Shown here in pieces: positions 19,023 through 39,933 of a stretch of DNA of 64,000 nucleotides. Each line of letters begins with the position of its first letter. Position 1 is the first letter of the stretch. The stretch is from NCBI GenBank assembly GCA_001874335.1, contig MPDE01000004.1, forward strand, positions 62,001 to 126,000. Direction: 5' to 3'. A model generated the notes under the pieces. The model saw nothing but the letters and a program-made list of their open reading frames with translations. It was not told the DNA's origin and did not search any database. A program made the translations under genes and the position numbers. This DNA is from Bacteroidetes bacterium MedPE-SWsnd-G2. GTDB lineage: Bacteria; Bacteroidota; Bacteroidia; Flavobacteriales; Flavobacteriaceae.

Positions 19023-19052
19023 CAAATTTAACCTATTGTTTTACCTAACCAA
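19023..19052 (-). promoter_or_regulatory. uvrB promoter, predicted leaderless
   Basis: On the minus strand TTG (19050-19052), a 19-base spacer and TAAATTTG (19023-19030) match the Bacteroidota consensus. Only TAGT separates the box from the uvrB ATG, so transcription would begin at or next to the start codon. Its upstream half lies inside the last codons of the T9SS cargo gene at 19041-21365. Confidence 0.75.
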
Positions 19053-21365
19053 AGCAAAATGACCGCGGTAAATAATTTGGTCGTTACTATAAACAACAAA
19101 CCAATAATCATCTGAAGGTAACAAATTGCCATTTAATGTCCCGTTCCAACCAACATCGTTATATGATAAGTTGGTTATGAGTTTTCCGTACCTGTTAAAT
19201 ATTTTGACGGTTAATTCTGAATTAAACTCAGCATTCACTCCTTTTAGTTGCCATAACTCATTATAATTATCGCCATTTGGTGTAAAGAATTTGGGATACC
19301 CCACAATAGCAAACTCCATTGACGCAGTGTTGCAGTTAAATTCATCTTTAACATAAACGGTATGAAACCCTGAATCTAAATTGTAAAAATTTGGGTCTGA
19401 TTGATAAGAGCCATTTATGTCGTCAATGGCGTATTGAAACGGTCCGTTACCTAAAGTTTCAACCAATATGGAGTTTGGTGTATCTAAATATGTAATTCCA
19501 GATATAACTGGAGCATCTGCAGGTATTACAGTGATATTTCTTTGGGAGCTACATCCGTTAGGATCTGTAATGATAACCGTGTAAACTCCAGGTTCATTTA
19601 TATCGATAAATGAAGTATCTACTTCTGTATCTTGATTATTGAAAAGCCAATTGTAATAATAATTGTTGGGTAAATCATTGAGGACTCCTCCATATAATCT
19701 AATGGTATCTGGATATAAATTATTGCAATAAATGGTTGATGAATCACCACTGTTTTGCGGTGTGTACAAAACTTTTAAATCTACTTCATTTATTCCCAAA
19801 CAACTGCCATCTTCTTGAATCCTAACAAAAATAGTTTGTAGAAAAGGAGAGACGTTTAAGTAATTGTTGGGTAGTTGGTTTTCCTCAAAAATGGCATCAT
19901 TTTCTGTAAGGTAGTAATTAACTTCGGCTGTTTCCGGGATTTCAGCTTCAATACTTTCTTCAATAAGTTGAAGATTGAAAGTGACAAATCCATCGACGGT
20001 TTCATCGTCACAAATTTCTAATGCTGGAATGAAAATATTTGTATTTGAAGTCTCTAAACGCACTGATGCAGTACTTGCACATCCTTGATTATTTATTATC
20101 CGAGCATAAACCAATTGATTTGGAGTTGTATTGCCAAAATTGTTTGGATTTTCTAATGGGTTTGTATTATTAATTGCATCTGTTTCAGTAAGGAAAAAAT
20201 TGCCAACAATTAAGTTGCTGTCATTTATAGTAAGTTGATTTTCGGCATCATACAAATCATAAAATGACAGTCCATCATTATTGGAATCGCAATTGGAAAG
20301 ATTGGCATCTTGTACTAGAGGTGTTTCAGAATATTCGATAGCAATACTTCCGTAAGAAATACAATCGTTGTCTAATGTGATTTCAACTTCATAAAGCCCT
20401 GGTGATTCAACATTATAAATAGGAGATGTGACGTCTGGCAGAAGTACACCATCTTTCTTCCAAAGATAAGAGGTAGCCTGATTCTCGGTAGCATCTAACC
20501 ACAGATTTTCGCCTTCACATAACGCGTTATTTAATCCTAATAAACGGTCAGGTCCCATATCTGTAGTTAGTTCAAAACTCCCGGCTTCAAGAAAAACTGC
20601 CGAGTCATATCTGTAATTCTGTTCGTCAGCTATTACTAATTTCACATGATAGGTGTTATTAGGAATGACATTTGCAGTTGCGGTAAGAATGGCGGTTTGG
20701 CCATTAAAATTAATGGGCCAAGTGGTTGGATTATAGCTTCCAAAATAAGCTTCATTTTGGGCTGCACATCCATTGGGAATTTCGGGGTGAACTGTTGTTG
20801 CTTTTACCGGTGTATCTGTATTCGGAACCAAAGCAATGTTAAGGAATTCTTGTTCATTAACTGGCCTGATAAGAAATCCAAATAAATCTGAATAGTTGCA
20901 AGAATTAGGATTATTCGCTTGATATTCTTCTGAAGCGAAAATGTATCTGAAACTTACTTGTGATGCTACGGCAGTAAAATTAAATTCTAAAATAGTAGCA
21001 TTTAATGTGTTTGGTTCATTTAAAACTTCTTCTAAATCGGCGTCTCCTCCCCAATTAGGTGCATCATCATCGCTTAACGTTGAATTTGGTCCTGCAACAT
21101 TTTGCATACGTCCCGTGGTTAAAACGAGGCCTTCATCAAACGGAAAACCCGAGCCATTAGCATTGAAGTAACCATAACTTTCATCAGAGCCACCGAAGTC
21201 ACCTCCAACTACGTTTGTGACTTGAATATTTGAAATACAGTCGCTGTCAATTAATATGTCTTCAATTAATTGCTGGGGCGTATAGGTTTGAATGTCTGTT
21301 GTAATGTTTTGAGAAAAACCTAAAAGGCTAAAACATAAACATAAATACAAAAAACAATTTCTCAT
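19041..21365 (-). CDS. T9SS type B cargo, choice-of-anchor L head, 2 CDxDxDG modules (774 aa)
   Basis: An exported surface protein. A signal peptide (MRNCFLYLCLCFSLLGFSQ) is followed by a choice-of-anchor L domain (about 25-265; markers GLVLTTGRMQNVAGPNSTL, FRYIFASEEYQANNPNSC and HVKLVIADEQNYRYDSAVFLE), an Ig-like domain (about 270-345), two CDxDxDG modules (about 355-540), another Ig-like domain ending GVYTVIITDPNGC, a pre-CTD beta domain (SGFHTVYVKDEFNC) and the T9SS type B sorting domain (KFFTPNGDNYNELW to YRGHFALVR). It is the last and shortest of the three anchor-L proteins of the cluster. Probably displayed or released at the cell surface; the ligand is unknown. Confidence 0.92.
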   Translation of the reverse strand: MRNCFLYLCLCFSLLGFSQNITTDIQTYTPQQLIEDILIDSDCISNIQVTNVVGGDFGGSDESYGYFNANGSGFPFDEGLVLTTGRMQNVAGPNSTLSDDDAPNWGGDADLEEVLNEPNTLNATILEFNFTAVASQVSFRYIFASEEYQANNPNSCNYSDLFGFLIRPVNEQEFLNIALVPNTDTPVKATTVHPEIPNGCAAQNEAYFGSYNPTTWPINFNGQTAILTATANVIPNNTYHVKLVIADEQNYRYDSAVFLEAGSFELTTDMGPDRLLGLNNALCEGENLWLDATENQATSYLWKKDGVLLPDVTSPIYNVESPGLYEVEITLDNDCISYGSIAIEYSETPLVQDANLSNCDSNNDGLSFYDLYDAENQLTINDSNLIVGNFFLTETDAINNTNPLENPNNFGNTTPNQLVYARIINNQGCASTASVRLETSNTNIFIPALEICDDETVDGFVTFNLQLIEESIEAEIPETAEVNYYLTENDAIFEENQLPNNYLNVSPFLQTIFVRIQEDGSCLGINEVDLKVLYTPQNSGDSSTIYCNNLYPDTIRLYGGVLNDLPNNYYYNWLFNNQDTEVDTSFIDINEPGVYTVIITDPNGCSSQRNITVIPADAPVISGITYLDTPNSILVETLGNGPFQYAIDDINGSYQSDPNFYNLDSGFHTVYVKDEFNCNTASMEFAIVGYPKFFTPNGDNYNELWQLKGVNAEFNSELTVKIFNRYGKLITNLSYNDVGWNGTLNGNLLPSDDYWFVVYSNDQIIYRGHFALVR
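19730..20292 (-). repeat. Two copies of the about 95-aa CDxDxDG module
   Basis: Modules start at CDSNNDG and CDDETVDG. Each has the core pattern of the cluster: FxL after the acidic loop, a YxLTExDA-type segment, then VRI or ARI and a second Cys (GCAST, SCLGI). Confidence 0.85.
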
Positions 21366-21387
21366 AGAGTCACAAATTATTGGGACG

Positions 21388-21395
21388 CAAAGATA
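21388..21395 (-). promoter_or_regulatory. Candidate -7 box upstream of the 774-aa T9SS gene
   Basis: TATCTTTG on the minus strand fits TAnnTTTG, 22 bases before the ATG. No clear TTG is found at the proper distance, so support is partial. Confidence 0.4.
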
Positions 21396-21415
21396 CTAAT
21401 ATTAAGGAGGTTAAA

Positions 21416-21437
21416 AGTAAAAGGTATACCTTTTACT
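21416..21437 (-). terminator. 22-bp perfect palindrome after the 1611-aa T9SS gene
   Basis: A perfect palindrome with arms AGTAAAAGG and CCTTTTACT around TATA, 2 bases after the stop of the upstream gene. On the minus strand it is followed by TTTTAACC. As RNA it would be a 9-bp stem with a 4-base loop, consistent with a terminator; as DNA it could equally be a dimeric regulator site placed between two cargo genes. Confidence 0.5.
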
Positions 21438-21439
21438 AA

Positions 21440-24400
21440 TTATAACCTTAAAGAAAAATGGCCTCTAACTTCAAAATTAATATCTCCCTTTCGCACATTG
21501 GCTAAGAACCAATAATCGGCAGCAGGCATTTGATATCCATTATACTTGCCATCCCAACCTTGAGAGGTAGAGGTTAAAAAAGCTAATTGCTTACCATACC
21601 TATCAAAAATATAAATGTGAGTTCCTGGTAAGGTTTCTACACCGGTGATGTGCCAAGTATCAAAATGCCCATCGTTGTTTGGCGTCATGAATTTTGGAGC
21701 ATCAATAACCACAATCTCTTTTGAAACCTCATTGCAGCCGTTTAAATCAATGACCGTAATGGTGTGGTAACCTAATGAAACATTATAAAAGAAGTTGGAT
21801 TCTTGAGGGGCAAAATCATCTAATTGATACAAGTAATTTCCAATACCACTTACTTCAACAGTAATATTATTTGGGTCTGAAAAATCTATTGTTTCTGTGA
21901 ATTCGATTATTGCTTGTTCCGATTCGGTAACATTAAAAAATTGAGTAGACTCACAGCCATTAACGGTTGTGACAGATACATAGTAGGTTCCTATTTCGGT
22001 AATCTCAATGGTTGGAGATATTGCTCCTGTTGACCATTGGTAGGTGTCTTCGTCATTAAAAGTATATGCACTAACCGTAAGGGGTAAATCGTCCAAACAC
22101 ACAACTTGATCTGAAATATTTATCAAGGCAAGTGGATGAAGAGTTATTGAAAAATTTGAAATTGAAAAACAGCCACTCGCTAAGTTTTCTACTCGAGCAA
22201 ATATTTGATCTCCATCTGCAGCGCTGTAAAACTCATCTAAGACATTTATGTTGTTTGCTGCATCTGATTCCGAAACATAGTAAGAAACTTGAAATTGAGA
22301 GCTTATTTGGGATCCTAAAATTTGAGAATTTTGTTGGGTCAAATCAATCTCCAATGTTCCATCATAATCATCGTCACAAAACTCCAAGTTATCGGCAGTA
22401 TTGGCCGTAGGAACAGGGTTTACAATAATATCAAAAGGATAAACAATAAAACAATGCGTTGTTGTGTATTCTACTCTGGCATATAATGTTTCTATTTCAG
22501 ATGAAATTTGATGATTGGTATCCAATGAATTTTCTTCAGAATAAGCATCTAAAAATGTACTGTAATACGAGAAATCTATATTAATATCTGTGTCAGATAT
22601 CAAATTGTTTATTTGAGTTAAATCGTAATTATCAATATCATCTTCACAGGCAATAATGGATTCAAACGCGTTAATAGGCGGAGGTAAGTTTACAACTAAC
22701 TCTAATGGTAAAGACAAAAAACAATTGGTTATAGTATTGTTTACCTTGATGTAAATGGTTTGCGGATTAGAAATATTGGTATAAATTTCTGGGTCATTTA
22801 TGGCGTTAGTTTCATTTTCTAAATCTAACATCGATTCGTAGTAGGTGACTTGAATATCATTATTTCTAACATCCAAAATTTCGACTTCAATATTGGTCAA
22901 ATCAAAATATTGAAATCCATCATAATCGGTATCACAAGTAACCAATTGAGTGGCATTATTTACAACAGGTAATTGAATAACATTGAGTTCGAAACTGGTA
23001 ATGTATTTGCAAATATTACCAGTGTCAACTTTTACAAATATTTGTTGAGGATTTACCGTGTTGGTATGTGTTAATTCTAATTGGTTTGTCCCTGCCTCAG
23101 CGTCTTCAATAGTGGTGTAGTAGGTGATTTCGGAATTTTGATTTATACCTTCAGAAATTTCTAAAGTCTTTTCATTTAAATCAAAAGTCGCTACACCATC
23201 ATTAGAAATGTCATCACAAACAAACCAATCTGTAGGTTCGTTATATAGCGGGTAAACACCAGTTTGAATCGTAAATGAATCTAAAGTATAGCAATTTGGA
23301 TCCGTGAAATTTTGAACACGAACGTAAATAATTTGCGGATTACTTAAATTGTCATAATTATTGTTTTTATCGATGGCATTGATGTTGCCAACGGCATCCG
23401 TAAGAGATTCAAAATACAAGACTTCCTTCCCCGATTGTCCGTTTAAAATTTCCTCATCTTTGGTGTTGAACAAAAACTGACCTTCAGTGACAGCAATATC
23501 TGCACAATAGGTGTATTCTTCAATAGGTTGAATTTCCGGAATCGAATTAATGATGATGTCAAACTCTACAATAGAATAACATCCGGTAAGGTTACTATCA
23601 ATTCTGATATAGAACTGATTGGTATCCACTTCAAAAGCGGTTGGCGAATTAATAGGGTTTGAAAGTTGCTCAGCATTGTCTTCTGTTCTGAAATATGACA
23701 GTGTCAAATTCTCAGTGCTATCTAAAATTTCAGGCACCTTTGAAGTTAAATCTATAGTGAAGTTTGTCACTGAAGCGGGCTCACATATGAAAAATGGTTC
23801 TGGAGCGTTATAACTTGGCGCCGGTATAATATTAATGTCAAAAGGTTGTATATAACTGCACTCATTTGCGTTGTCACCAATTTTAATGTACAGTGTTAGT
23901 GGATTTGAAAAATTATCGAAATCACTATCTAAGGCATTGAAGCCGAACTCCGCCGATTCTAAAGTGTAGTAATAGTTAATTGAAAAATTAGGATCATCAA
24001 TTACCATAAAATCCTGAAGCCAGTCAAAGCTAATGTTAACAAATCCATTTTGATCATCATCGCAATAATCTATGGAGCTTGGCACATCAAATTCTGTTAC
24101 GGGATCCATTATCAAATCTATTTCTGCGGTCTCAACACAATCAGGACTCGTGATTGTTAAATAAAGTGTTTTTGGGTTTTCGGTAGAAACGTAGGGTTCG
24201 AAAATATCTAAGGCATTAGTTTCGTTTGTGCGATCTTCTTCGGTTTCGTAAAAATCAATTATTAAGTCAGGTACATCTGCCATAATAACAACACTAATCA
24301 GACTTAAATTGAATTCTTGAATGGTATCGTTGTCAATATCACATTCTGTGAAATCTCTAATTTCTGTACCAGTGAGAAGGAGGTTGGTATGAAGTTCTAT

Positions 24401-26275
24401 AGCCTCTGTGGTAAAACATCCCGTTTCATTATTCACTATTCTAATATGAACTATTTGTTCATTGCCAACTGTATTGGCAAAATTTGTATCATCAGAAATA
24501 GCGTTTTCACCAGAAGAGGCATCTCCTGCAGTAGGGTGGAAGGTGATGGTAACCTCATCAAGGTTTCCTGTGTAAACGTCTTCAATTATTGTAGTTAAAT
24601 CAAATTCTGCAAAACCGTCATAATCGTAGTCACAGGCATCTATATAAAATGGCCCTTCTTCTATGCCTGGAGCTCCAACAACATTAAAATCTAAATAGGT
24701 TGTGCTGATACAGCCTGTTTCTGGGTTTACAACTCTTATATAAAGTTGGTCATTTGGACTATTAACCACATAATTATCATCCATTGGATTTACTCCTGAA
24801 CCAGCATCTTCGGGCGTGGTATGATAAGTGACTTCAAAAGTTTCCTCACCTTGTGTAACAAACTCGTTATTATCACTTAATATCACTTCAATTTCATCAC
24901 CGTTTAATACAGCTTCACAATCTAAGGGCACAATGGGCGCATAGATAAAAGGCAACGGATTAACCACAAGATTGAACGAATTAAATAGAAGGCAACCCGT
25001 TACTGTGTCCTCTATTCTAACATGTATGGTTTGGTTGTTGAAAAGGTTTTCGATATTATTTGTTATCGCGTTATTGTTATTTTGGGCATCCCAACTTGAA
25101 AAATGATAGGATACTTCATAATTGTTTCCAGCTACAGAAGCTAATACTTCATCGGTCATTGTATCCAAATCAAATATTTCTTGACCATCGTTACTCACGT
25201 CATCACAAAGTTGGTAATCGGCTATTGGTTCTGGCGGTGCAGTAGAATTTAAATCGATATTTATGTCATCTTCGATGACGCAAAATCCCTCTCCTAAAGG
25301 GATTTCAATTTGAATTCGATAATTTCCTGAGGCATTAACGGTTAAGTCTGGTTGAGAGTGATCAGCGATTACCTCATCATTATAATACCAAGAGTAATTT
25401 GCTGCAGAATTAAAAATGTCTCCATTTAAATAAACAGTATCAGAACAGGTTATAATGTCTTCACCCAAATCTACATTTGGAGAAAAACTACTCCCTTCAA
25501 TAAATACTGCTGAATCGTAATTTCTATCCGTTTGATCTGCTATAATTAACTTAATGTGGTAAGAGACATTTGGTTGAATACTCGCAGATGCGGTTAATAC
25601 TTTAGTTCTCCCATTATAATTGGTGTCACCTAAATTGTAGCCTTCAAAATATTCTTCATTCTCACTTTCACAGAATCCGACTATTGCTTCGTGAATTGTA
25701 TTTGTATTTACCGGGATGTTTGTTCCTGGAATAATTGCAATATTACTATAAGGTTCTGAGCTAGCAGTTGGTTTAATCAGAAAGGCAAAACCATCGGAAT
25801 AATCACAGGGAAAATTGGCAAAATACTCTTCAGAGGCCAAAATGTAATTAAACTGTATTTCATTGGCGATGGAAATAAAATCAAATTCAATTGAAGTCGC
25901 ATTTAAAGTCCCTGATATATCCAGGGCAGATTCTAAATCGGGATCGGTTGCCCAAGAGTCGTCACCTTCATTTAAAATTTCTGTATTTACGGCATTTCCT
26001 CCGGAACTTGCGCTTCCAGTAGATAGTATTATGCCGTTGTCAAATGGAAAATCTGAATTCTCTTTATTAAAAAACGCATAACTGCCTAGACCAATTTCTG
26101 AACCATTGATTTGGCTCATTATATTAGAGATTTCTACGCAATCACTGCCTAAGGCGTTTTGTATTAGTTCTTCAACAGAATTGGCAGTATTGGTGCTAAT
26201 TTGTTGAGAAACAGCACTTATACTAAAGCATAGCAAAACAAGGCAATACAAATATTTACTTGTAAGTCTTAGCAT
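21440..26275 (-). CDS. Giant T9SS type B cargo, choice-of-anchor L head, 11 CDxDxDG modules (1611 aa)
   Basis: The start is placed at ATG 26275 (MLRLTSKYLYCLVLLCFSI), which begins the signal peptide; a TTG six codons upstream is less likely. Order: signal peptide; choice-of-anchor L domain (about 30-275; NGIILSTGSASSGGNAVNT, FNYILASEEYFANFPC, YHIKLIIADQTDRNYDSAV); Ig-like domain; eleven modules of 90-97 residues (about 350-1385); Ig-like domain ending GTYYVSVTTVNGC; pre-CTD domain; T9SS type B sorting domain (KFMTPNNDGHFDTWHITGV to EVRGHFSLRL). A Cys opens each module and a second Cys sits about 65-70 residues later, so intra-module disulfides are possible. It is a full-length paralogue of the upstream 1607-aa gene. 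Probable role: long surface fibre or adhesin. Confidence 0.92.
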   Translation of the reverse strand: MLRLTSKYLYCLVLLCFSISAVSQQISTNTANSVEELIQNALGSDCVEISNIMSQINGSEIGLGSYAFFNKENSDFPFDNGIILSTGSASSGGNAVNTEILNEGDDSWATDPDLESALDISGTLNATSIEFDFISIANEIQFNYILASEEYFANFPCDYSDGFAFLIKPTASSEPYSNIAIIPGTNIPVNTNTIHEAIVGFCESENEEYFEGYNLGDTNYNGRTKVLTASASIQPNVSYHIKLIIADQTDRNYDSAVFIEGSSFSPNVDLGEDIITCSDTVYLNGDIFNSAANYSWYYNDEVIADHSQPDLTVNASGNYRIQIEIPLGEGFCVIEDDINIDLNSTAPPEPIADYQLCDDVSNDGQEIFDLDTMTDEVLASVAGNNYEVSYHFSSWDAQNNNNAITNNIENLFNNQTIHVRIEDTVTGCLLFNSFNLVVNPLPFIYAPIVPLDCEAVLNGDEIEVILSDNNEFVTQGEETFEVTYHTTPEDAGSGVNPMDDNYVVNSPNDQLYIRVVNPETGCISTTYLDFNVVGAPGIEEGPFYIDACDYDYDGFAEFDLTTIIEDVYTGNLDEVTITFHPTAGDASSGENAISDDTNFANTVGNEQIVHIRIVNNETGCFTTEAIELHTNLLLTGTEIRDFTECDIDNDTIQEFNLSLISVVIMADVPDLIIDFYETEEDRTNETNALDIFEPYVSTENPKTLYLTITSPDCVETAEIDLIMDPVTEFDVPSSIDYCDDDQNGFVNISFDWLQDFMVIDDPNFSINYYYTLESAEFGFNALDSDFDNFSNPLTLYIKIGDNANECSYIQPFDINIIPAPSYNAPEPFFICEPASVTNFTIDLTSKVPEILDSTENLTLSYFRTEDNAEQLSNPINSPTAFEVDTNQFYIRIDSNLTGCYSIVEFDIIINSIPEIQPIEEYTYCADIAVTEGQFLFNTKDEEILNGQSGKEVLYFESLTDAVGNINAIDKNNNYDNLSNPQIIYVRVQNFTDPNCYTLDSFTIQTGVYPLYNEPTDWFVCDDISNDGVATFDLNEKTLEISEGINQNSEITYYTTIEDAEAGTNQLELTHTNTVNPQQIFVKVDTGNICKYITSFELNVIQLPVVNNATQLVTCDTDYDGFQYFDLTNIEVEILDVRNNDIQVTYYESMLDLENETNAINDPEIYTNISNPQTIYIKVNNTITNCFLSLPLELVVNLPPPINAFESIIACEDDIDNYDLTQINNLISDTDINIDFSYYSTFLDAYSEENSLDTNHQISSEIETLYARVEYTTTHCFIVYPFDIIVNPVPTANTADNLEFCDDDYDGTLEIDLTQQNSQILGSQISSQFQVSYYVSESDAANNINVLDEFYSAADGDQIFARVENLASGCFSISNFSITLHPLALINISDQVVCLDDLPLTVSAYTFNDEDTYQWSTGAISPTIEITEIGTYYVSVTTVNGCESTQFFNVTESEQAIIEFTETIDFSDPNNITVEVSGIGNYLYQLDDFAPQESNFFYNVSLGYHTITVIDLNGCNEVSKEIVVIDAPKFMTPNNDGHFDTWHITGVETLPGTHIYIFDRYGKQLAFLTSTSQGWDGKYNGYQMPAADYWFLANVRKGDINFEVRGHFSLRL
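22105..25208 (-). repeat. Array of 11 CDxDxDG modules in the 1611-aa cargo
   Basis: Module heads in order include CDDVSNDG, CEAVLNGD, CDYDYDG, CDIDND, CDDDQNG, CEPASVTN, CADIAVTEG, CDDISNDG, CDTDYDG, CEDDIDN and CDDDYDG. Modules 2, 6 and 7 have lost most acidic loop residues. Between modules the linker usually ends in a Pro-rich strand (VNPLP, INSIP). Confidence 0.88.
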
Positions 26276-26426
26276 GATGGGATCAAATAACAATTTTTTT
26301 AACAGAGCTACCTCTGCTTTTTTTGGAAGTATAAGTTATGAAAAAATTGCCTTACATGTACTAATCTCCGATAATATGCATAATCTGCTGATTAATTGAT
26401 TGTTAAGTTTGAAATTAGAATTGTAT

Positions 26427-29400
26427 TTAACGTCTAAGCGCAAAATGACCTCTTACCTGAAAGTCAATTCCGTCCTTTTTTACGTTTGCAACATACCAAT
26501 AATCTGTAGCTGGCATGTCTTTTCCGTTGTATTTACCATTCCATCCTTCAGATGTTGATGTTAAATAATGGATTTGTTTTCCAAAACGGTCAAATATAAA
26601 AATTTCGGTACCTGATAATTGCTCTACTCCGGTGATGTGCCATGTGTCAAAATAACTATCTCCATTTGGAGTCATAAATTTAGGTGCATCAATAATTACA
26701 ACTTCTTTGGTGATTTCAGAACAGCCGTTTAAATCAATTACGGTTATTATATGCGGGCCTAAGGCTACATTTTCAAATACGTTTGATTCTTGAGCTGGTT
26801 GATCATCTAATTGGTATAGATAATTTCCAATTCCGCTTATGGTAACTGTTATGTTATTAGGGTCTGAGAAATCTACAGTTTCTGTAATTTCAATACTTGC
26901 TTGTTCAGATTCACTAACATTAAATACCGATGTAGTTTCACAACCATTTGGTGTTGTAACAGTGACCCAGTAGGTGCCAATTTCTGTAACTTCAATTTCA
27001 GGAGTAGTCATACCATTTGACCACAGATAAGTATAACTAGGTGTATTGTTATTAGAGCTAACCAATAGCGGTAAGTCTTCTAAACAAATAACCTGATCTT
27101 CACTTATTGGTATTGGGAGTTGATATACCTCTAGATTAAAACTTGCCGTTATATAGCATCCCGAAGAATTATTTGTAATTCGAGCGTATAAGGTTTCTCC
27201 TGAAAATCCGACATAATCCAACGGTAATGCATTGTCAAATAAGTCGGCATCTGTAGAAGATGTGTGATAACTTACATTAAATATGTTTGGGTTTTGATTT
27301 CCTAATAATGTCGAATTGTGACTGCTTAAATCAAATTCTGCAATACCATCAAAGTTATCATCACAAATGGTCAAGTTCTCTGTTGAATTCACGAATGGAA
27401 GTGGATTTACTACCAGCTGAAATGGATAAATCGTATAACAATGCGTCGTGCTAAATTCTACTCGAACCACTAAAGGTGTTGCTGCCGAATTGTAATTAAA
27501 AAGAGTATTTATAGGATTGCTTTGCGCTTCTGCATCGGCAATACTGTTGTAATATGAAAATAACACGTTATATGAATTCTCTACTAAAGTTGAATTAATC
27601 GTGTTTAAATCGAACAGTTGATTTTCAGTTTCACAAATTTCAAAAGTTCCAAAATCATTTATTACTGGAGGTAAATTCACCTGAAGCGGGATAGGTTGAA
27701 TAACAGAACAATTTGAAATTGTATTCGTAACCTTTATAAAAACGGTTTCCTGTAATTCGGTGTTTTGATAGTTTGTAGGATTTGAAATCGGATTCAATTC
27801 TAATTCGGCTTCATTATAATTTTGAAAATAACTGATAACTAAATTATCATTTCTTACATCTAAAACATCTGATTCTGCTTGAGTAATATCAAAAATTACG
27901 ATGCCATCGGCATTATCATCACAGACTATCATTGGTTGAGGTTGATTTACCTCTGGAACCATAATTACGTTAAGTTCGAAACTCGTTACAGAAGCACAAA
28001 TAGTACCGTTATCAATACGTGCATAAATTTGTTGCGGATTAACTGTATTTTCAAAAGATTCAGAAATTGGATTTACTCCCAATTCTGCAGATGCTAATGT
28101 TGTATGAAATGTAATTGTTAGGTTGTCATTAATCCCTTGAGAAATCTCTGTTGATTTTATTGATAAATCAAAAACTTCACTTCCGTCATTTGAAATATCA
28201 TCACAAACAAACCAATCGGTAGCATGATTAAATAATGGGTTGGTCCCAACTTCTAAGGTAAAACTTGATGTTCCGAAACAATCTGCATCTGTAACATTTT
28301 CTACTCTAACATAAATGGTTTGAGGATTGCTTATGTTTTGATAGGCTTGCGTTTTATCAATAGCATTTGTTTTATTGTTGGCGTCGGTTAAACTGGTGTA
28401 ATAAGACGTTACCTTTCCTGTTTGACCATTTAAAATTTCGTTGTCTTTAGTATTAAAAAAGAAATCGGCAAAGTTATCACTACTGTCTTCACAAATTGTA
28501 TAATTACTGATATCCAAAAATACAGGTAAGGTGTTTACAATGACATCAAATGCTTCAATAGAGTGGCAGCCCGTTGCATTGTTTTCAATTCTTGCAAATA
28601 AACGTTCTGTGCCGGCGTCATAAGACTCCATATTAATAGGATTAGCCGCATTGTCTGCATTGGCATAACTGGTATGAAAGCTAAAGCTAAATCCGCTTGG
28701 ATTTACCATTAGTTCAGGAATTCGTGTTGTTAAATCAAGTGTAGATAGACCATCCTGATCATCATCACAAATAATTATATCTGAAAGCGGTAAGGTGTCT
28801 GGGGCTGGTAAAACATTAATTTCAAATTCACTTACATCGGCACAACCAGTTAGGTTATATCTGATTCTTGTGTATATGGTTTGTGGGTTAGAAATATTGG
28901 TATAAAAGTTAGGTAATGCATTTGAATTCGATTCGGCATCGGCCATTGAAGCAAAATAGGTCACACTAAAATCTGACTGACCAAAAGTCACTTGTTCATC
29001 AAAGAATGCTAGTTCGATACTCGTGAATCCATCTTGATCTGTATCACAATAATCTATGGTTCCAGCATCATCAAATAAAATTATAGGATTTATAGTTAAT
29101 ATAATTTCAGAATATTCTTCGCAAGTTGGACTTGTAATCGTAATATAAATGGTTTGTGGGTTACTCGTTGTTTCAAAAGGAGTGGCCTTATCTAATGCAT
29201 TTATGTTATTAGTTTGGTCGTCTTCAGTTTCAAAAAATGTAACTGTAACATCAGGTAAACCGTTAACGATAACCTGTTCCATATTTATTAAATCGAATGG
29301 CTCTACAAGATCATTATCTTCATCACAAATTGAGAAATCAATGATATTTGTGGCAGTTAGCAGCAGATTGGTATGAATCTCTATAGGCATTGTACTTGCG

Positions 29401-31250: not shown

Positions 31251-31317
31251 GTTCAGTAGGTTAAGTTCTTTGCTAAGAAGTTTGATTTGGGGAATCCTAG
31301 CAGTTCTTAATAGTGAA

Positions 31318-31348
31318 CAAAAGTAACGTTAAACTGGATGAAATGCAA
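31318..31348 (-). promoter_or_regulatory. Promoter of the 1607-aa T9SS cargo gene (TTG-N20-TACTTTTG)
   Basis: On the minus strand TTG (31346-31348), 20 bases, TACTTTTG (31318-31325). This is the same box and spacing as at sucC. The leader would be about 60 bases. It lies in the 130-base gap after the 605-aa cargo gene, so the anchor-L genes can be expressed apart from the upstream part of the cluster. Confidence 0.75.
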
Positions 31349-31380
31349 AAAATCACGATGAAATGCAATTTATTTAACAG

Positions 31381-33198
31381 CTACCTATTTAAATAGACCC
31401 AACCTGTAAGAGAATTGAAATTGGGATCGTTGAGGTGAAGGACATAAAAATAGGTGCCAACAGGTACTAATTTTCCGTTTCTATTCATACCTCTATTTAC
31501 CAATCCGTCCCATTTTAGATTGTTGTTGCCTTTGAAAATTAGATCACCATAGCGGTTGTAAATAAGTAATTCATGATGTTCGAAAATATCATAAAGACCT
31601 TGAATGTTGAACCAATCGTTTTTACCATCACCATTAGGAGAAAACCCTTGTGGGATATAAGGCGGGCAATTTTCAACTTGAACAGTAAGACTGTAAGGTT
31701 GGTAACAAGTATCTAAAGGAAATTTAATATATATGGTTTGCGGGTTTTGGTCATTTGTAAATTGCTCAGGAATGGATATAGGATTTATACCTTGTTCTAA
31801 GTCTGTAATAGAAGCGTAAAAAGACAGGTTTGATATATCAAGGTTGGTTTCTTCTTCAAATAAAAGTGGAAGATTGAAAACAGCTGAGTTAAACCCTTCA
31901 TCACATGCAGTTGAAATTCCTAATGCAATTATTTCAGGAATCTCGAGTAAAACAAGTTGGGCATTATCCCAGTTATTCGTTTCATTAATTTCTGTTACCA
32001 TTCCAATGCCAGATCCGTTATCATCTACAACTATTGAAAGTTGAAAATTTTCAGGAATACCTATTGGTATTTCTAAAGTAGTAACATAAGAGTCTTGTTC
32101 ATTAATATCTAGTGCAGAAGCAGTTTGGCTTGTACCAATTAATGTACCATCGGCATAAAAGGCAATAGGAACATTGCTCGGCAATATTTCTGTACTGTTG
32201 GTATTATAAATGGTGTATTCTACATCAATTGAACGGTCGCCACAATTTATTATATCGCTATCTATAGTTACTGTTGCATCCGGCAATTGACTGTTTAAAA
32301 CAGTAATTATATTGTTTATCATTACAAAATCCTGACCGGAAGTAAGTTGAATTATAGCCGAAGTATCTCCAATGTCAATGTTGTTTTGGATATCATAGAC
32401 GTCAATATCCATATTATAAAGATTGGTTTCACCTGTAAAACTGTTTGTGCCGTTAAAGGCATTGTTAACAGGGTTTAGCGGAGGGTTTCCGATTGCGTTT
32501 CCGTTGATGGTTAGTTGTTCGTTCACTGCTAGTGCAGAGTCACCTTCCCAGGCTACAAACCCAATTTTTGCGCCTTCGTTGTCTAAAACATTCAAATTGT
32601 CTAAAGTAACTTCCAGTTGTTCAGGAACACTTTGAAGTCCGTCGTAAACATTTAATTGATTCAGTGGTAAATTTAAATCCTCATAAATGATAGTAATCGC
32701 CCAACCTCCAAAATTGGTACCGGAAGGACAATAAGGGGGAATAACACTTGTTAAGTCTAATTCACTTAATGTGTAATTTCCAACGCCTTCATTAATAACT
32801 AATTCAGTGACATCTGCAAAGGCTGCAAAAAACTGTCTACTCGCATCCAAATTAATATTGAATGTGCGTTCAGCCATTATTTCAATGCCGTTTAAATTGA
32901 CATTAAAATCTCCTGCTCCAGATCCTGCCCAATATAAATAGGCTGCCGTAATAGTTTGGCTTGAATTTAAATTTAAAAGTGCACTTGAGCTGGTATATAT
33001 ATCACAAGTACCGTTAAGTCCGTTTTCGGTTAAATTTAAAGTATTTCCAATAGCAGTATAATCAAACCTACCATTAAATTGCTGATAAAGAGATATATCC
33101 TGAGCATTAAGATTTGAACTCAAGAGCATTATAAAAAAACAGATAAGAAATTTAAAATTTCTATACACTACTAAGGTGATTTTGGGTGCTGTCTTCAA
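31381..33198 (-). CDS. T9SS type B cargo with DUF3344/CARDB-like regions and 1 module (605 aa)
   Basis: An exported protein with a different head. The N-terminal part (about 35-290) has ITAAYLYWAGSGAGDFNV and WAITIIYEDLNLPLNQLNVYD, resembling DUF3344-type beta domains. A CARDB-like domain follows (about 310-420, ending VTEINETNNWDNAQ), then one copy of the cluster module (CDEGFNSAVFNL to PLDTC), and a classical type B sorting domain (GFSPNGDGKNDWFNIQGL to GWVYLNR). No ATG precedes the signal peptide: the start is TTG at 33198 or GTG at 33168. The GTG gives MYRNFKFLICFFIMLLSSN, which is a cleaner signal peptide. It follows the 813-aa cargo gene by 9 bases and is probably cotranscribed with it. 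Confidence 0.88.
   Translation of the reverse strand: MKTAPKITLVVYRNFKFLICFFIMLLSSNLNAQDISLYQQFNGRFDYTAIGNTLNLTENGLNGTCDIYTSSSALLNLNSSQTITAAYLYWAGSGAGDFNVNLNGIEIMAERTFNINLDASRQFFAAFADVTELVINEGVGNYTLSELDLTSVIPPYCPSGTNFGGWAITIIYEDLNLPLNQLNVYDGLQSVPEQLEVTLDNLNVLDNEGAKIGFVAWEGDSALAVNEQLTINGNAIGNPPLNPVNNAFNGTNSFTGETNLYNMDIDVYDIQNNIDIGDTSAIIQLTSGQDFVMINNIITVLNSQLPDATVTIDSDIINCGDRSIDVEYTIYNTNSTEILPSNVPIAFYADGTLIGTSQTASALDINEQDSYVTTLEIPIGIPENFQLSIVVDDNGSGIGMVTEINETNNWDNAQLVLLEIPEIIALGISTACDEGFNSAVFNLPLLFEEETNLDISNLSFYASITDLEQGINPISIPEQFTNDQNPQTIYIKFPLDTCYQPYSLTVQVENCPPYIPQGFSPNGDGKNDWFNIQGLYDIFEHHELLIYNRYGDLIFKGNNNLKWDGLVNRGMNRNGKLVPVGTYFYVLHLNDPNFNSLTGWVYLNR
31670..31908 (-). repeat. Single CDxDxDG-type module in the 605-aa cargo
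   Basis: Head CDEGFN, then AVFNLP, LSFYASITDLEQGINPIS, NPQTIYIKF and DTC. The acidic loop is degenerate. This links the fourth protein to the family even though its head and sorting tail differ. Confidence 0.75.
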
Positions 33199-33207
33199 AG
33201 TTAGTAA

Positions 33208-35649
33208 TTATCTTTTTAATGTAAAATGACTATTAAAAACCCGACCATCTTGCAAAATCACTTGAAACCAATAGTCATCTCCAGGTAATGGATTTCCGTT
33301 GTAATTGCCGTCCCAACTTCTGTTGTTTCCGCTTAAAGTGGTAATTAATTTACCATACCTATTAAAAATGAGAACCTTAGTTTGTGGTTGAAAATCATCT
33401 GAAACACCATTTATACTCCAAGTGTCATTGTGACTATCGTTATTGGGTGTAAAGTACTTAGGGAAACCAATTACCGAAACTTGTTTTTCAAATAGACCGC
33501 AATTGTTTTTGTCTCTTACAAAAACCGTATAGAAGCCCGAAATGAGGTTGGTAAATTCATTACTGTCTTGATACGGACCGTTACTGTTGTTTAAAGAAAA
33601 TTCATAATCACCTTCACCTGAAACCAATATAGTTATAGAGTTGTTTGCAGAAGCATCTGAAATTTCAATGGCGTCAAAAGTTGCAATATTTGAAGGAAGT
33701 ACTTGAATGGTTCTCGATTTAAAACAGCCGTTTGTGTTTATAACGTTTACCGTATATGTCCCTGGTTCATTAACCATTATTTCAGATGAATCTTCACCAG
33801 TAGACCATTCAAAATAGTAATTGTTAGGGATGTCATTTAAAACACCTGCATCAAGGGTAATTGGAGTAGGGTATTCATTTAAGCAATACAAAAATTCATC
33901 TTCAATGTCCAGCTGTGGTAAGGCAAAAACCTCCAATGAGATTTCACTGATACCATAACACGCATTTTCATTTTCAATCCGTGCATAAACAACTTGATTG
34001 TAGGGAATGGTGTTTGAAAATTGAGATGTAATTGGAGAGGCTTCAATAAGCGCATCATTATAAAACTGGTAGTAAGTAACTGTTGAAGTTGCTGGAATGT
34101 CATCAGAAATTAAACTTTCTAATTCGCCTAAGTTAAAGGTCTGAATTCCATCTTCAATGCCGTCATCATCACATTTAGTAAGTGATAAATCCTGAACTTG
34201 GGTCGCACTGATGTTTAAATTTAACAGACCTAAATTGAAGCAACTCGTGACTGAATTAGTTAGCCTAACGTAAAGCGTTTGCGGATTAAAAAAGTTGTCA
34301 AAAATAGTGCTTTCAAGTGCATTGCTATTTTGAAGTGCTTGTTCTGCGGAAAAGAAATATGTGATTTCTATATCTGAATTGTCATTAGAAAATTCGGATT
34401 CTATTTCTGAGAGATTGAAAGTTGTAAATCCTTCAGGTATTCCATCTTCGTCACATTGAGTCAGCGTTAACACTTGTGATTCTGGAGCTACCAATACTTC
34501 TAAGGTTAATGGTAATATTACTTTACAGTCTAAATTTCCAACCTCGGCAATCCTAACAAAAACAACCTGATTAAATGCCGTGGTGTTGGTGTATACATCT
34601 GGAAGTGGTGAAGTACTATTCTCAGCGCTTTCTTCGGTTAAATGATAACTAATATTGTAAAGTGTTGCATCTTGGTTTTGAAGAATTTCATTTTGATATT
34701 CTAATAGATTAAATGATGTAATTCCATTTGGCACAGAATCACCTTCATAATCATCGCATTCTTGAAACGGTTCATCAATGGAAATGTCAGGCCCAAAATT
34801 TGCAGTAAGTTGGAATTCTGAAATTTCAAAACATTCGGTATTCTCGTTAGTGACTCTCACAAAAATGATTTGAGGATTTGCAATGTTAGTATATGGGGTG
34901 CTCCAATCAATTGGATTAGTATTAAGGTTTGCATCGCTTTCGGTTTCGTGATAACTAAATGTAACATTTACTTGATCTCCCAAAACAATTGAATTGTTAA
35001 CCGATAAATCGAAAGTGGTAAGTCCGTCATTGTAGGGCGCAACACTATCACAATTTTCAATGTTAGTCGCGTTTGAAACATCTTGGTTGGCTGGAGGCTC
35101 CGCAAATTGCGCTGAACCGGTCCATTCCATGCTAAAAGGGCTGTTGCCAATGGGTCTGTCAATGACTAAAAAGTAGCGTTCTCCAGCGAGGACATCTAGG
35201 GATTCCACAAAACTATTTCCGTTGGCTCCAGGTCCTTCAGAAGCATCAGTTTCTGTTGATGACATTCCGGTTAAATTATTTGCTTGATTTATACTTGCCG
35301 GATTTGTGGTAGAGCACCTTACAGCTTGTCCTAAATTATTGCAGTCTATTACAGGTCCAAATAAGAAAAAATCATAATCTTCGGTTATTGCAGCACTATT
35401 TGGAGTTAAGGTAAATGCCAAAGTACCATCGGTAATGGGATCTAATCTAAGCCAAATAGAGTTGTTTTCTTGACTACCACAGTCATTACTACCAGTAAGT
35501 TCTTGTACACCCACACCTTCAACATCTAGGCTGAGGTTGGAGTTGCCACAAATAACAATAGCATTAATACAATCGGATGGTTGTTGTGCTTGTGCAAGGC
35601 ATGTTATATTTAGAAATGCTACAAGTAGAATTATAATTTTATAGTTCAA
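33208..35649 (-). CDS. T9SS type B cargo with PPC-like head and 4 modules (813 aa)
   Basis: The signal peptide MNYKIIILLVAFLNITCLAQ starts at TTG 35649; there is no in-frame ATG before it. The head (about 22-190) is a PPC/jelly-roll-like beta domain seen in many T9SS proteins (SDCINAIVICGNSNLSLDVE, SIWLRLDPITDGTLAFTL, GERYFLVIDRPIGNSPFSM). Four modules follow (about 200-585; heads CDSVAPYNDG, CDDYEGDSVPNG, CDEDGIPEG, CDDDGIEDG), then an Ig-like domain ending GTYTVNVINTNGC, a pre-CTD domain and the type B sorting domain (KYFTPNNDSHNDTWSINGV to FNSHFTLKR). The C-terminal half is very similar to that of the upstream 1134-aa protein. It starts 7 bases after that gene's stop. Confidence 0.9.
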   Translation of the reverse strand: MNYKIIILLVAFLNITCLAQAQQPSDCINAIVICGNSNLSLDVEGVGVQELTGSNDCGSQENNSIWLRLDPITDGTLAFTLTPNSAAITEDYDFFLFGPVIDCNNLGQAVRCSTTNPASINQANNLTGMSSTETDASEGPGANGNSFVESLDVLAGERYFLVIDRPIGNSPFSMEWTGSAQFAEPPANQDVSNATNIENCDSVAPYNDGLTTFDLSVNNSIVLGDQVNVTFSYHETESDANLNTNPIDWSTPYTNIANPQIIFVRVTNENTECFEISEFQLTANFGPDISIDEPFQECDDYEGDSVPNGITSFNLLEYQNEILQNQDATLYNISYHLTEESAENSTSPLPDVYTNTTAFNQVVFVRIAEVGNLDCKVILPLTLEVLVAPESQVLTLTQCDEDGIPEGFTTFNLSEIESEFSNDNSDIEITYFFSAEQALQNSNALESTIFDNFFNPQTLYVRLTNSVTSCFNLGLLNLNISATQVQDLSLTKCDDDGIEDGIQTFNLGELESLISDDIPATSTVTYYQFYNDALIEASPITSQFSNTIPYNQVVYARIENENACYGISEISLEVFALPQLDIEDEFLYCLNEYPTPITLDAGVLNDIPNNYYFEWSTGEDSSEIMVNEPGTYTVNVINTNGCFKSRTIQVLPSNIATFDAIEISDASANNSITILVSGEGDYEFSLNNSNGPYQDSNEFTNLISGFYTVFVRDKNNCGLFEKQVSVIGFPKYFTPNNDSHNDTWSINGVSDDFQPQTKVLIFNRYGKLITTLSGNNRSWDGNYNGNPLPGDDYWFQVILQDGRVFNSHFTLKR
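33888..35052 (-). repeat. Four CDxDxDG modules in the 813-aa cargo
   Basis: Modules 1 and 2 have longer acidic loops (CDSVAPYNDG, CDDYEGDSVPNG). Modules 3 and 4 (CDEDGIPEG, CDDDGIEDG) correspond to modules 3 and 4 of the next protein upstream. Confidence 0.85.
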
Positions 35650-35656
35650 AATAATG

Positions 35657-38600
35657 TTATCGTTTTAATGCAAAGTGTCCTCTAAAAACTCTTCCGTCTT
35701 CTAAGGTGACGGCAAACCAATAATCACTTGCAGGGAGTGCATACCCGTTTAAAGTACCATCCCAACCAATCCCTAATGGATCTAATTCTTTAATTAATTT
35801 GCCATAGCGATCAAAAATGTAAATTATAGAATTAGGTTGAAACTGAGAGCTTAAACCTTTTACTTGCCAAGTGTCATTATAGGTGTCGTTATTAGGCGTG
35901 AAAAATTTAGGAAATCCAATTACAGATACCAGGTCATCCACGACACCACAATTATTTTTATCTCGAACATAAATGGTATGAAACCCAGACAATACATTTT
36001 CAAAAACGTTGCTATCTTGATAGGGACCAAATTCTGAATCTATTGCATATTCGTAATCCCCTTCACCAGTAACAAACACAGTAATAGAATTGTTTGATGA
36101 GGCGTCTGAAATTTCAAAGCCTTCTATAGTTGCTATGTTTGAAGGTAATACGGTAATAGTTCTTGTTTTAAAACAACCATCAGTGTTTATGACATTAACG
36201 GTATAGGTGCCAGGTTCATTTACCATTATTTCTGAGGATGTTTCACCTGTAGACCATTCAAAATAATAGAAATTTGGAAGGTCGTTTATTAATCCGGCGG
36301 TTAGTGTAATTGTTTCTGGAAAGAAATTTAAGCAGTATAAGGTTTCAAATTCGGTTTCAATTTGAGGTAATTCATAAACCACTAAATTTATTTCGCTTAT
36401 ACCAAAGCAAGCATTCATGTTTTCTCCACGAGCATAAATTATTTGTTGGTATGGTGTGGTGTTGGTGTAATTTAGTCCAATTGAATTTTGTTCTGTAAGT
36501 GCGTCTTCATAATTTTCATAAAAACTAATTTCGGTATCAATTGGAGTTTCATTTTCTAATTGTTCTAATACCGAATTTAAATTAAAAGTTTGAAATCCGT
36601 CTTCTGTGCCGTCATCGTCACAAGTAGTTAATTCTATATTGCTGATAGCAGTGCTGCTAATGTCTAATGTAATTGTGCTAAAACTGATGCATCCTGTAAG
36701 GTCATTAACAACCTTGGCAATTAAAATTTGAGGATTGAAGAAGTTTTCAAAAAAATCGGGATTTAATTCGTTTTCATGATTTTCAGCATCTTCAATATCT
36801 AAAAAGAAATGTACAGTTCTATCTGCTTCACCTTCTGTGATATCTTCTGTAATTTGATTAAGATTAAATATCGTAAACCCTTCAGAAATGCCATCTTCGT
36901 CACATTGTATAAGACTAACATCATTTGCTATGGGCGAGTTATTAATTATTAAAGAAAATGAATCGACACTAAAACAATCTGGGTTCTCGTTATTTTCAAT
37001 TCTAACAAATAGTTCTTCTTGGTTTGGGGTTACATTAGTATAAATATTAGGTAATGCATTGGTGTTGTTTATTGCATTATCTTCGGAATTGTGATAGGTA
37101 ATTGAGAATAAATTTTCGTCCTGATCACCTAATATTTGAGGGTTAAATTCTGTTAAGTCAAAAGTAGCAATCCCGTCCATGGTGTCTTGATTCATTTCTG
37201 AATCACAAATGATAAAATCGTCATTAGATTCAACATTTGGCGTTAAGTATGTTTTGATTTGGAACTCGCCAAAATCTTTACAAATTTCATTTTCATCGTT
37301 TTGTAATACGGCATAGATAGTTTGAAACTCCCCATTGCCAGTATAATCAAAAGCGCCAATAATCTCGTTCATATTATTTATTGCATCCTCCATAGAGGTG
37401 TAATAATGCACCGAATAATTTGCAGGGTCTTGTGCTCCTAAAATGGCACTGTCATTTATTGTAAGATCAAATTGCGAATTAAATGTAGAATTACAGTTTT
37501 CAATATTTGGTGCAGAAACTAAAATTGGAATATCGTGATAAGTAACAATAGCCTCCCCTTCAATGGGACATTCGCCATTGTTAGGCTCAATAAAAACTTC
37601 ATAGAATCCTGGTTCGTCAACAAAAAGTTGATAGGTTGTTTCTGATATTGGAGCTCCATCTTTAGACCAAGAATAGAATGCTCCATCTATTTCTTCTGCA
37701 GTTAGAGTGTAATCAGAACCATTACATAGCTTCAATTCAGTTGTGCTAATGCCGTTTTGAATGATATCAATCGTTGAGTTAAATAGGGATTGAATGAAGG
37801 GAGGAAGGCCAATTCTGGATAAATTCTGAAAATTATTATTGACATCTACCAACAATCCATTTTCCACAAAATTTGCTTCATTTCCAATTAATTCTGGGTT
37901 ATTAATGACTCCTAAATATTGTCCTGTTGTCCCAAAATTTGAAAAATCCATTTGAGCCCTATAAATTTTTTGATTAAGACCTAATTGAAGAGCACCTGCG
38001 GTTAAGGTATTGGAAGTGTGAATTACGGTTTGGGAATCAGAAATATTATCACTTAATAGATCCCATTGTAAAACTTGACTACTCCCATTTCCTGCAGGTC
38101 CTAATCCAATAGTCGCATATACTTTTGTGTTTTCAGCAGAAAACTCTACGCCATAAGGACTATCACCATTTTCGGGACCATAAATTTCTTGTTCGTTTGA
38201 AACAATGCCTGTGTCATTATCAAAATCGAAAAGGTAAACTCCTCCAGCAGCATCTTGTCCTGTGTTTTCAGAAAAACCAAAATGTGCGACTACTAATTTT
38301 GTGCCGTCAGGAGATGCTTTAATATATCCCAAAGAGTTACGTCTATATCCTGAAACAGGAACTTCTGGGCCTACTTCAGAAATGACTGGAGTGGTTTCTA
38401 CGCCATTTTCATCAATCTTAAAAGCGTAAAATTTGTTAGTAAAATGTGTGATTACCCAAAATGAAGAGCAATCGTCAGCTTTTACGGCAGTTATTTTTTC
38501 AGAACATTTATAATCTACTTCGTCGGGGTTTGTTGGGTCGAAGGTTTCTAAGGTGATGTTTTTCTCTAAAGGATCGACGTCTCCTAATCCACCTTCTAAA

Positions 38601-39061
38601 CTCATATCTACTAAGGAATATGCTAGCCCATCATTTACACCATCACCATCTACTTCATTAGGGAAAGCACTACTATTAAAATGATGAGGTTCATCAACTG
38701 TAAAGATGTAATAGAAATTAGCATCTTGTGGTTTCGGAACAATTAAGCCGGAGGAAGTACTGGAATCGTCACCTAATAAGCCTGTATTAAAATTTTCATT
38801 TGCATTTGGCATGGGTTGATGGTTACTATTCCAAATGGTTCGGCCATCTGAATAAAATAGTAAATCACCATTTTGGTCAGAAATAGAGGTGCAGCCTTCA
38901 AGTGTGTTTAATTCGCCATTTGTTATTGCAGTTACAGTATTGGTACTTGTGTCAAATTGTAAACCTGCATTTTGGCCAAAATACCAAACAGAAGCTTCGT
39001 TTTGAGCATGTAGAATTCCGCTAAATATCAGCAAAAAAAAGGGGAAGTAGAAATTTTTCAT
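35657..39061 (-). CDS. T9SS type B cargo with propeller-like head and 4 modules (1134 aa)
   Basis: The start is placed at ATG 39061 (MKNFYFPFFLLIFSGILHAQ), a complete signal peptide; a GTG four codons upstream is less likely. The head (about 22-430) is a beta-propeller-like region typical of Bacteroidota T9SS proteins: VWYFGQNAGLQFDTSTNTV, LLFYSDGRTIWNSNHQPM, FYYIFTVDEPHH, VVAHFGFS and YGVEFSAENTKVYAT. Then come an Ig-like domain (about 455-515), four modules (about 522-910), an Ig-like domain ending GTYTVNVINTDGC, a pre-CTD domain and the type B sorting domain (KFFTPNNDTYNDTWQVKGL to FRGHFALKR). It begins 27 bases after the ABC permease stop, so it may be cotranscribed with the transporter. 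Confidence 0.92.
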   Translation of the reverse strand: MKNFYFPFFLLIFSGILHAQNEASVWYFGQNAGLQFDTSTNTVTAITNGELNTLEGCTSISDQNGDLLFYSDGRTIWNSNHQPMPNANENFNTGLLGDDSSTSSGLIVPKPQDANFYYIFTVDEPHHFNSSAFPNEVDGDGVNDGLAYSLVDMSLEGGLGDVDPLEKNITLETFDPTNPDEVDYKCSEKITAVKADDCSSFWVITHFTNKFYAFKIDENGVETTPVISEVGPEVPVSGYRRNSLGYIKASPDGTKLVVAHFGFSENTGQDAAGGVYLFDFDNDTGIVSNEQEIYGPENGDSPYGVEFSAENTKVYATIGLGPAGNGSSQVLQWDLLSDNISDSQTVIHTSNTLTAGALQLGLNQKIYRAQMDFSNFGTTGQYLGVINNPELIGNEANFVENGLLVDVNNNFQNLSRIGLPPFIQSLFNSTIDIIQNGISTTELKLCNGSDYTLTAEEIDGAFYSWSKDGAPISETTYQLFVDEPGFYEVFIEPNNGECPIEGEAIVTYHDIPILVSAPNIENCNSTFNSQFDLTINDSAILGAQDPANYSVHYYTSMEDAINNMNEIIGAFDYTGNGEFQTIYAVLQNDENEICKDFGEFQIKTYLTPNVESNDDFIICDSEMNQDTMDGIATFDLTEFNPQILGDQDENLFSITYHNSEDNAINNTNALPNIYTNVTPNQEELFVRIENNENPDCFSVDSFSLIINNSPIANDVSLIQCDEDGISEGFTIFNLNQITEDITEGEADRTVHFFLDIEDAENHENELNPDFFENFFNPQILIAKVVNDLTGCISFSTITLDISSTAISNIELTTCDDDGTEDGFQTFNLNSVLEQLENETPIDTEISFYENYEDALTEQNSIGLNYTNTTPYQQIIYARGENMNACFGISEINLVVYELPQIETEFETLYCLNFFPETITLTAGLINDLPNFYYFEWSTGETSSEIMVNEPGTYTVNVINTDGCFKTRTITVLPSNIATIEGFEISDASSNNSITVFVTGEGDYEYAIDSEFGPYQDSNVFENVLSGFHTIYVRDKNNCGVVDDLVSVIGFPKFFTPNNDTYNDTWQVKGLSSQFQPNSIIYIFDRYGKLIKELDPLGIGWDGTLNGYALPASDYWFAVTLEDGRVFRGHFALKR
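36335..37497 (-). repeat. Four CDxDxDG modules in the 1134-aa cargo
   Basis: Heads CNSTFN, CDSEMNQDTMDG, CDEDGISEG and CDDDGTEDG. The last two match the last two of the 813-aa cargo almost residue for residue in the head (GFTIFNL and GFQTFNL). Confidence 0.85.
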
Positions 39062-39088
39062 AAATGATAGCACAGGCTACCAAATATA

Positions 39089-39913: not shown

Positions 39914-39933
39914 AATGGTTGGGTAATGAAATG

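Follow-up and report, generated by a model that had tools for sequence, protein, structure and literature searches.

The window analysed here is a stretch of 64,000 nucleotides from the Flavobacteriaceae member Bacteroidetes bacterium MedPE-SWsnd-G2 (GCA_001874335.1, contig MPDE01000004.1, forward strand positions 62,001 to 126,000). It contains six adjoining minus-strand open reading frames (ORFs) encoding cargo proteins of the type IX secretion system (T9SS) that are all built from one type of module of about 90 residues. Computation over related loci shows that the module arrays are position-specific, with count and order nearly frozen between species. Repetitive adhesins usually show the opposite. 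Repetitive T9SS type B surface proteins are already known as a kind; what is new is the module family, together with its fixed, block-wise array. That both count and order are fixed suggests selection on rod length and on the identity of the modules, in contrast to a slippage-prone repeat.

Six type B cargo genes share one module

An iterated profile hidden Markov model (HMM), seeded from some of the cluster's own 33 module copies, found 4, 4, 1, 11, 11 and 2 modules in transcription order (genes 1 to 6), the same counts and total as in a first-pass annotation of the window. That all six are type B cargo, as proposed there, was borne out by a TIGR04131/CHU_C signal domain over both cut-offs at each C-terminus (6/6). 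The N-termini are hydrophobic and end in A-Q-like motifs (translations judged by eye). The choice-of-anchor L domain (NF038133; anchor-L below) forms the N-terminal head of genes 4, 5 and 6, gene 5 being a diverged tandem paralogue of gene 4. This agrees with the three anchor-L heads first named, whereas the names propeller-like, PPC-like and DUF3344-like given to other heads found no support in Pfam or NCBIfam: the heads of genes 1 to 3 match no family there above cut-off, and the similarity of gene 3 to CARDB is sub-threshold. The earlier view that one module is reused behind different heads was upheld, the 33 copies lying in a cluster of type B cargo genes that is itself conserved. The features are as follows (all on the minus strand; aa, amino acids; CTD, C-terminal domain; arrays defined by the HMM).

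35657-39073: gene 1, 1138 aa from GTG, likely ATG at 39061; putative signal peptide, unnamed head, 4 modules, type B CTD
36362-37507: gene 1 module array, 4 copies, aa 523-904
35660-35920: gene 1 type B CTD (TIGR04131, E 3.6e-35)
33208-35649: gene 2, 813 aa; unnamed head, 4 modules, type B CTD
33913-35064: gene 2 module array, 4 copies, aa 196-579
33211-33474: gene 2 type B CTD (TIGR04131, E 1e-32)
31381-33198: gene 3, 605 aa; one module behind a head whose CARDB similarity is below cut-off; divergent type B CTD
31660-31914: gene 3 single module, aa 429-513
31384-31659: gene 3 type B CTD, 25-37% identity to the other five cluster CTDs
26427-31250: gene 4, 1607 aa; anchor-L head, immunoglobulin (Ig)-like linker, 11 modules, type B CTD
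30468-31148: gene 4 anchor-L domain (NF038133, E 1.6e-41)
27111-30200: gene 4 module array, 11 copies, aa 351-1380
27111-27935: gene 4 modules 9-10-11, the block repeated in longer relatives; modelled with AlphaFold
26430-26696: gene 4 type B CTD (TIGR04131, E 2.1e-30)
21440-26293: gene 5, 1617 aa; anchor-L head, 11 modules colinear with gene 4, type B CTD
25487-26167: gene 5 anchor-L domain (NF038133, E 1.9e-44)
22124-25219: gene 5 module array, 11 copies, aa 359-1390
21443-21709: gene 5 type B CTD (TIGR04131, E 8.1e-30)
19041-21365: gene 6, 774 aa; anchor-L head, 2 modules, type B CTD
20577-21230: gene 6 anchor-L domain (NF038133, E 8.5e-46)
19755-20303: gene 6 module array, 2 copies, aa 355-537
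19044-19304: gene 6 type B CTD (TIGR04131, E 2.1e-30)

Array length and order are nearly frozen

Related loci (L-numbers) were fetched by the module motif, using a profile of five modules; the set comes mostly from one family and is biased to gene-4-like proteins. Modules were counted in full-length relatives only, which were assigned to a cluster gene by best match. Orthologues of gene 3 have one module in 33/33 cases, those of gene 6 two in 22/22 and those of gene 2 four in 18/18. Gene 1 orthologues carry four modules (19 proteins), two (8), six (2) or nine (1). Gene-4-like proteins have 11 modules (44), 14 (16), 17 (2), 20 (1) or 10 (2, in two related genes), apart from a few distant others. 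In a search led by the head, in which the module motif was not used, 22 of the 24 best head matches lay in ORFs of 1608-1662 aa.

When the modules of the 11-module proteins were labelled by their nearest module in the window, the order 1 to 11 was recovered in nearly every species, with few ambiguous calls. In 43 such proteins every module was most similar to the one at the same position in another species (473/473), never to one in its own protein. Median module identity is 51% at the same position across species versus 32% between positions within one protein. A recent expansion of the module is thereby ruled out, since copies within a protein are only 32% alike as against 51% for orthologous positions across genera. 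The module had at first been described as variable in copy number; counts per orthologue are in fact nearly fixed and the modules position-specific.

In the longer relatives, with 14, 17 and 20 modules, the order 1 to 11 is continued by additional copies of the block 9-10-11, numbering one, two or three. In a tree of the region from the head to module 8, the 14-module forms fall at several places among the 11-module ones, and in a tree of the 9-10-11 blocks, first copies largely group with first copies and last with last, across paralogues. These two trees indicate that the block duplication is old and that gain and loss proceed in whole blocks. Long anchor-L paralogues also occur in tandem runs (L059 and G304:C21:164461-182396), with 17- and 11-module forms adjoining.

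Fixed counts might instead reflect no more than slow evolution and shared descent, with no functional meaning. The sampling bias of the locus set described above would favour this, and steps of three follow naturally from an existing three-module duplication through recombination between its copies. The head-based sampling, however, yields the same length; identity between orthologous modules is down to about 51%, which leaves ample time for change; and the 14-, 17- and 20-module forms reveal active recombination on the array, yet other counts are rare, as in the two related genes with 10. Evolutionary inertia bears on what the array means and could hold alongside the other explanations; we give it a real but lesser chance of being correct. 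With a fixed, position-specific array, the importance of rod length and of module identity becomes testable.

Sequence and predicted fold of the module

The module has a period of 95 residues (87-102) in the 11-module genes and is very acidic, with a median net charge of about -13 and Lys+Arg making up only 2%. The second Cys pointed out in the first-pass annotation is well supported: when the cluster's 33 modules are aligned, two Cys positions show no variation, and exactly two are present in 1366 of the 1414 modules of the related loci. The CDxDxDG-type opening, on the other hand, had been taken for a general feature, but a strict DxDxDG head occurs in 342/1414 modules and is limited to certain positions of the 11-module array, largely 3, 5, 6, 9 and 11, with some at 4.

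Searches of the whole proteins against Pfam-A and NCBIfam and of all 33 modules against Pfam gave, for the module, scattered single sub-threshold matches only, in keeping with the initial failure to put a Pfam name to the module, and no relative was found in the PDB by sequence. The SprB repeat was rejected as the identity of the module, as had been anticipated: PF13573 gave one match only, in gene 4 (E 0.01, 14 residues), below cut-off. As there is no family model for the module, proteins containing it are annotated only by their tail or head.

The fold prediction recommended in the first-pass annotation was carried out on gene 4 modules 9-11 in tandem. AlphaFold, with 72 aligned sequences, gave a confident model (predicted local distance difference test, pLDDT, 93.6). 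The leading Foldseek matches of this three-module model in the PDB are Ig-like or cadherin-like rods, the best being GhpA (E 4.1e-9), and a viral structure library returned generic Ig-like matches only. The modelled fold is an Ig-like beta-sandwich, and a variant of it, because each module has two short helices and the template modelling (TM) scores over three domains are low. For GhpA these are 0.33-0.42 for the three-module rod; they are modest because three domains were compared at once, and the match is therefore taken as one of fold, with homology not implied.

Distribution and conservation of the locus

The module profile detected 14 further copies in four other loci of the host genome, and copies are present in 44/297 Bacteroidota genomes, 30 of the 44 belonging to the same family. 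Because the HMM was built from cluster copies, those found elsewhere in the genome and in other genomes are an independent confirmation. The module is widespread in Flavobacteriaceae and present in most sampled members. Eleven modules (L102) lie on a contig labelled as a Gammaproteobacteria metagenome-assembled genome, which is probably contamination.

Nor is the module confined to type B cargo, as L110 encodes a protein with three diverged copies. This protein (L110:486-3275) is a putative lipoprotein with a lipobox-like FFQSC; a T9SS tail was not found in it.

Across genera the cluster is situated between an ATP-binding cassette (ABC) transporter pair and uvrB, both flanks being visible in at least 13 related loci and one flank in many more:

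39089-40830, minus strand: ABC-2 permease (39089-39913) and ATPase (39934-40830), upstream of the cluster and kept with it across genera
17015-19018, minus strand: uvrB, downstream neighbour and conserved cluster boundary

Joint action of the ABC-transporter pair with the cluster is unsupported. Gene content varies: gene 2, 3 or 6 is absent in some genomes, and extra long paralogues are present in others. Since cluster members are missing in some genomes (e.g. in L046, L048, L077 and L090), an obligate complex of the cluster proteins is unlikely. The proposal of a single surface system is accordingly supported in part, namely by the conserved neighbourhood; the gene set itself is not conserved.

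Carriers and their partner CTDs

The host genome (G000; C-numbers are its contigs) contains 12 type B CTDs (TIGR04131-type matches) and 49 matches to type A T9SS signals. Further module-bearing or type B proteins are truncated, as contig ends or starts fall inside such genes (ends of C2, C4 and C15; ends or starts of C10, C12 and C14). There are four PorP/SprF carriers, two on C1, one on C12 and one on C17, and none lies beside the cluster. Both C1 carriers and the C12 carrier each stand behind a type B gene. The C17 carrier (G000:C17:167357-168307; L106, L114, L118) belongs to the PorP/SprF family (TIGR03519, E 2.6e-55) and is located at a contig end. It is not an orphan, because the 89 bases upstream of it, up to the contig end, encode a type B CTD end (TVEYDEPNTGERREFRAHFTLKR); its partner was cut by the assembly. 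All but one of the last ~23 residues of this CTD are shared with a CTD located where C14 starts.

Compared with that C14 CTD, those of genes 1, 2, 4, 5 and 6 show 40-56% identity (45-56% for genes 1, 2, 5 and 6, 40% for gene 4). Against the partner CTD of the resident SprF-like carrier (C1:270768), which adjoins a SprB-like gene, the same five give 37-42% (gene 4, 38%). The C-terminus of the C17 carrier, FECNCPAVN, contains a C-X-C motif that is kept in 29 of the 30 orthologues listed; the sole listed orthologue with a C-tail devoid of it is that of L140. The tail of the SprF-like carrier, NCAC, is also C-X-C, and the C12 carrier, paired with a divergent CTD, has no such tail. In SprF the twin-cysteine C-tail is disulfide-bonded to GldK Cys343 and needed for sustained adhesin movement (PMC12635249); GldJ and GldK are both present in the host genome.

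In four related loci (L121, L126, L134 and L146) a type B gene with modules is directly followed by a C17-type carrier. Of the 54 genomes with a completeness of 90% or more, 44 contain both anchor-L/module proteins and the carrier, none the module only, six the carrier only and four neither, counted without correction for phylogeny. In Flavobacterium johnsoniae three orphan type B proteins depend on a single carrier, and type B tails can direct cargo to the gliding machinery (PMC12618676). Comparison of the CTD sequences suggests that five of the cluster proteins may likewise share the C17 carrier.

A proposed model of binding heads on rods

Taken as a whole, the following model of heads on rods, C17 carrier and gliding-track link appears reasonably, if not strongly, probable. 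In each protein an acidic rod, made of Ig-like modules stapled by disulfides, would hold a binding head away from the cell, and the tail would tether the protein to a PorP/SprF-family carrier in the outer membrane. The two invariant Cys of each module probably form an intramodular disulfide, and the DxDxDG loops at modules 3, 5, 6, 9 and 11 may bind calcium and thereby stiffen particular joints. Five of the six proteins (all but that of gene 3) lack a carrier gene of their own and are proposed to use the C17 carrier in common. Its Cys-X-Cys tail would hook to GldK, and the five proteins are therefore proposed to be moved along the gliding track like SprB. The heads may bind polysaccharide or another surface. 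Adhesion, the shared carrier, gliding-track loading, calcium and disulfides are thus points that we infer.

Several observations weigh against this model. Three of the six heads belong to no family, and the CTD of gene 3 is distant from all CTDs compared and fits neither carrier. The identities of the other five to the SprF-like partner CTD are not far below those to the C14 CTD. To these may be added the low TM-scores with GhpA, the co-occurrence count uncorrected for phylogeny, and the purely sequence-based grounds for disulfides and calcium loops.

The cluster proteins might alternatively be static surface adhesins or form a coat like a surface layer (S-layer), which after export would remain on a carrier anchored in the cell wall and be unconnected with gliding. 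Some type B tails (Fjoh_3952) are indeed static, as are most SprB-CTD(Fjoh_1123) foci (PMC12618676), and tandem Ig-like rods are also found in S-layer and biofilm proteins, which are among the Foldseek matches of the head model. Yet the static class described goes with operons holding a PorE homologue and their own carrier (PMC12618676), whereas the cluster has no adjacent carrier (no search was made for a PorE homologue). Moreover, the best-matching carrier bears the track-linking C-X-C, which the C12 carrier does not. We therefore regard a static coat as doubtful.

Export through the resident SprF-like carrier, making the cluster proteins auxiliary gliding adhesins that compete with SprB for SprF, would likewise provide a C-X-C tail and a partner CTD with 37-42% identity to the five, and to that extent counts against the C17 route, but it is improbable given that the C14/C17 CTD is nearer to genes 1, 2, 5 and 6 and slightly nearer to gene 4, and that C17-type carriers adjoin module-bearing genes in other genomes.

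The proposed carrier link gives a concrete way to test if more than one type of adhesin travels on a single GldK track in gliding bacteria. A bolder form of the proposal, which we put forward tentatively and consider unlikely, is that Flavobacteriaceae possess, in addition to SprB, another widespread class of adhesins on the gliding track: a uvrB-linked cluster of rods whose length is genetically fixed at 11 modules and changes only in units of three, all loaded by one dedicated Cys-X-Cys carrier onto the GldK track.

Comparison with known systems

Like SprB and other type B adhesins of F. johnsoniae (PMC12618676), the cluster products are large surface proteins with a type B CTD, and several are orphan substrates. 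They differ from SprB in their module, which is not the PF13573 repeat, and in that the next gene downstream of the cluster is uvrB and not the SprF gene. The C17 carrier resembles SprF (PMC12635249) in its PorP/SprF family and the C-X-C at its C-terminus, but its identity to the resident SprF-like protein is only ~31%.

GhpA of Aureispira sp. CCB-QB (PDB 9fly, 9flw, 9flp and others) is a T9SS-secreted grappling-hook protein (PMC11205867), the structures matched here being cryo-EM fragments. It is likewise a Bacteroidota T9SS cargo with tandem Ig-like domains; unlike the cluster proteins, however, GhpA forms heptamers of a ~5000-residue protein, and the cluster module has no sequence match to it.

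With choice-of-anchor L proteins the cluster shares the head of genes 4, 5 and 6. The NCBIfam model names that head only, and the module behind it has no model. A literature search for the choice-of-anchor L domain found no mention in the papers covered. An AlphaFold-type model of the head was only fair (pLDDT 83), its Foldseek matches being MAM-Ig-FN and Ig chains, and was not used to assign function.

Further observations

A scan for the Bacteroidota -33/-7 promoter pattern gave 5 matches versus 6.3 expected; one of them (31318-31349) is in the gap before gene 4 and is not significant. Sigma-70 and terminator scans were at chance level. A type B protein (L112:1871-3868) consists of repeated CDGxDNNCDGxIDEG-type motifs resembling metal-binding ones and has a CTD of the cluster kind. 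Elsewhere in the window, an ORF at 51657-52250 carries a type A T9SS signal (match G000:C14:114020-114241).

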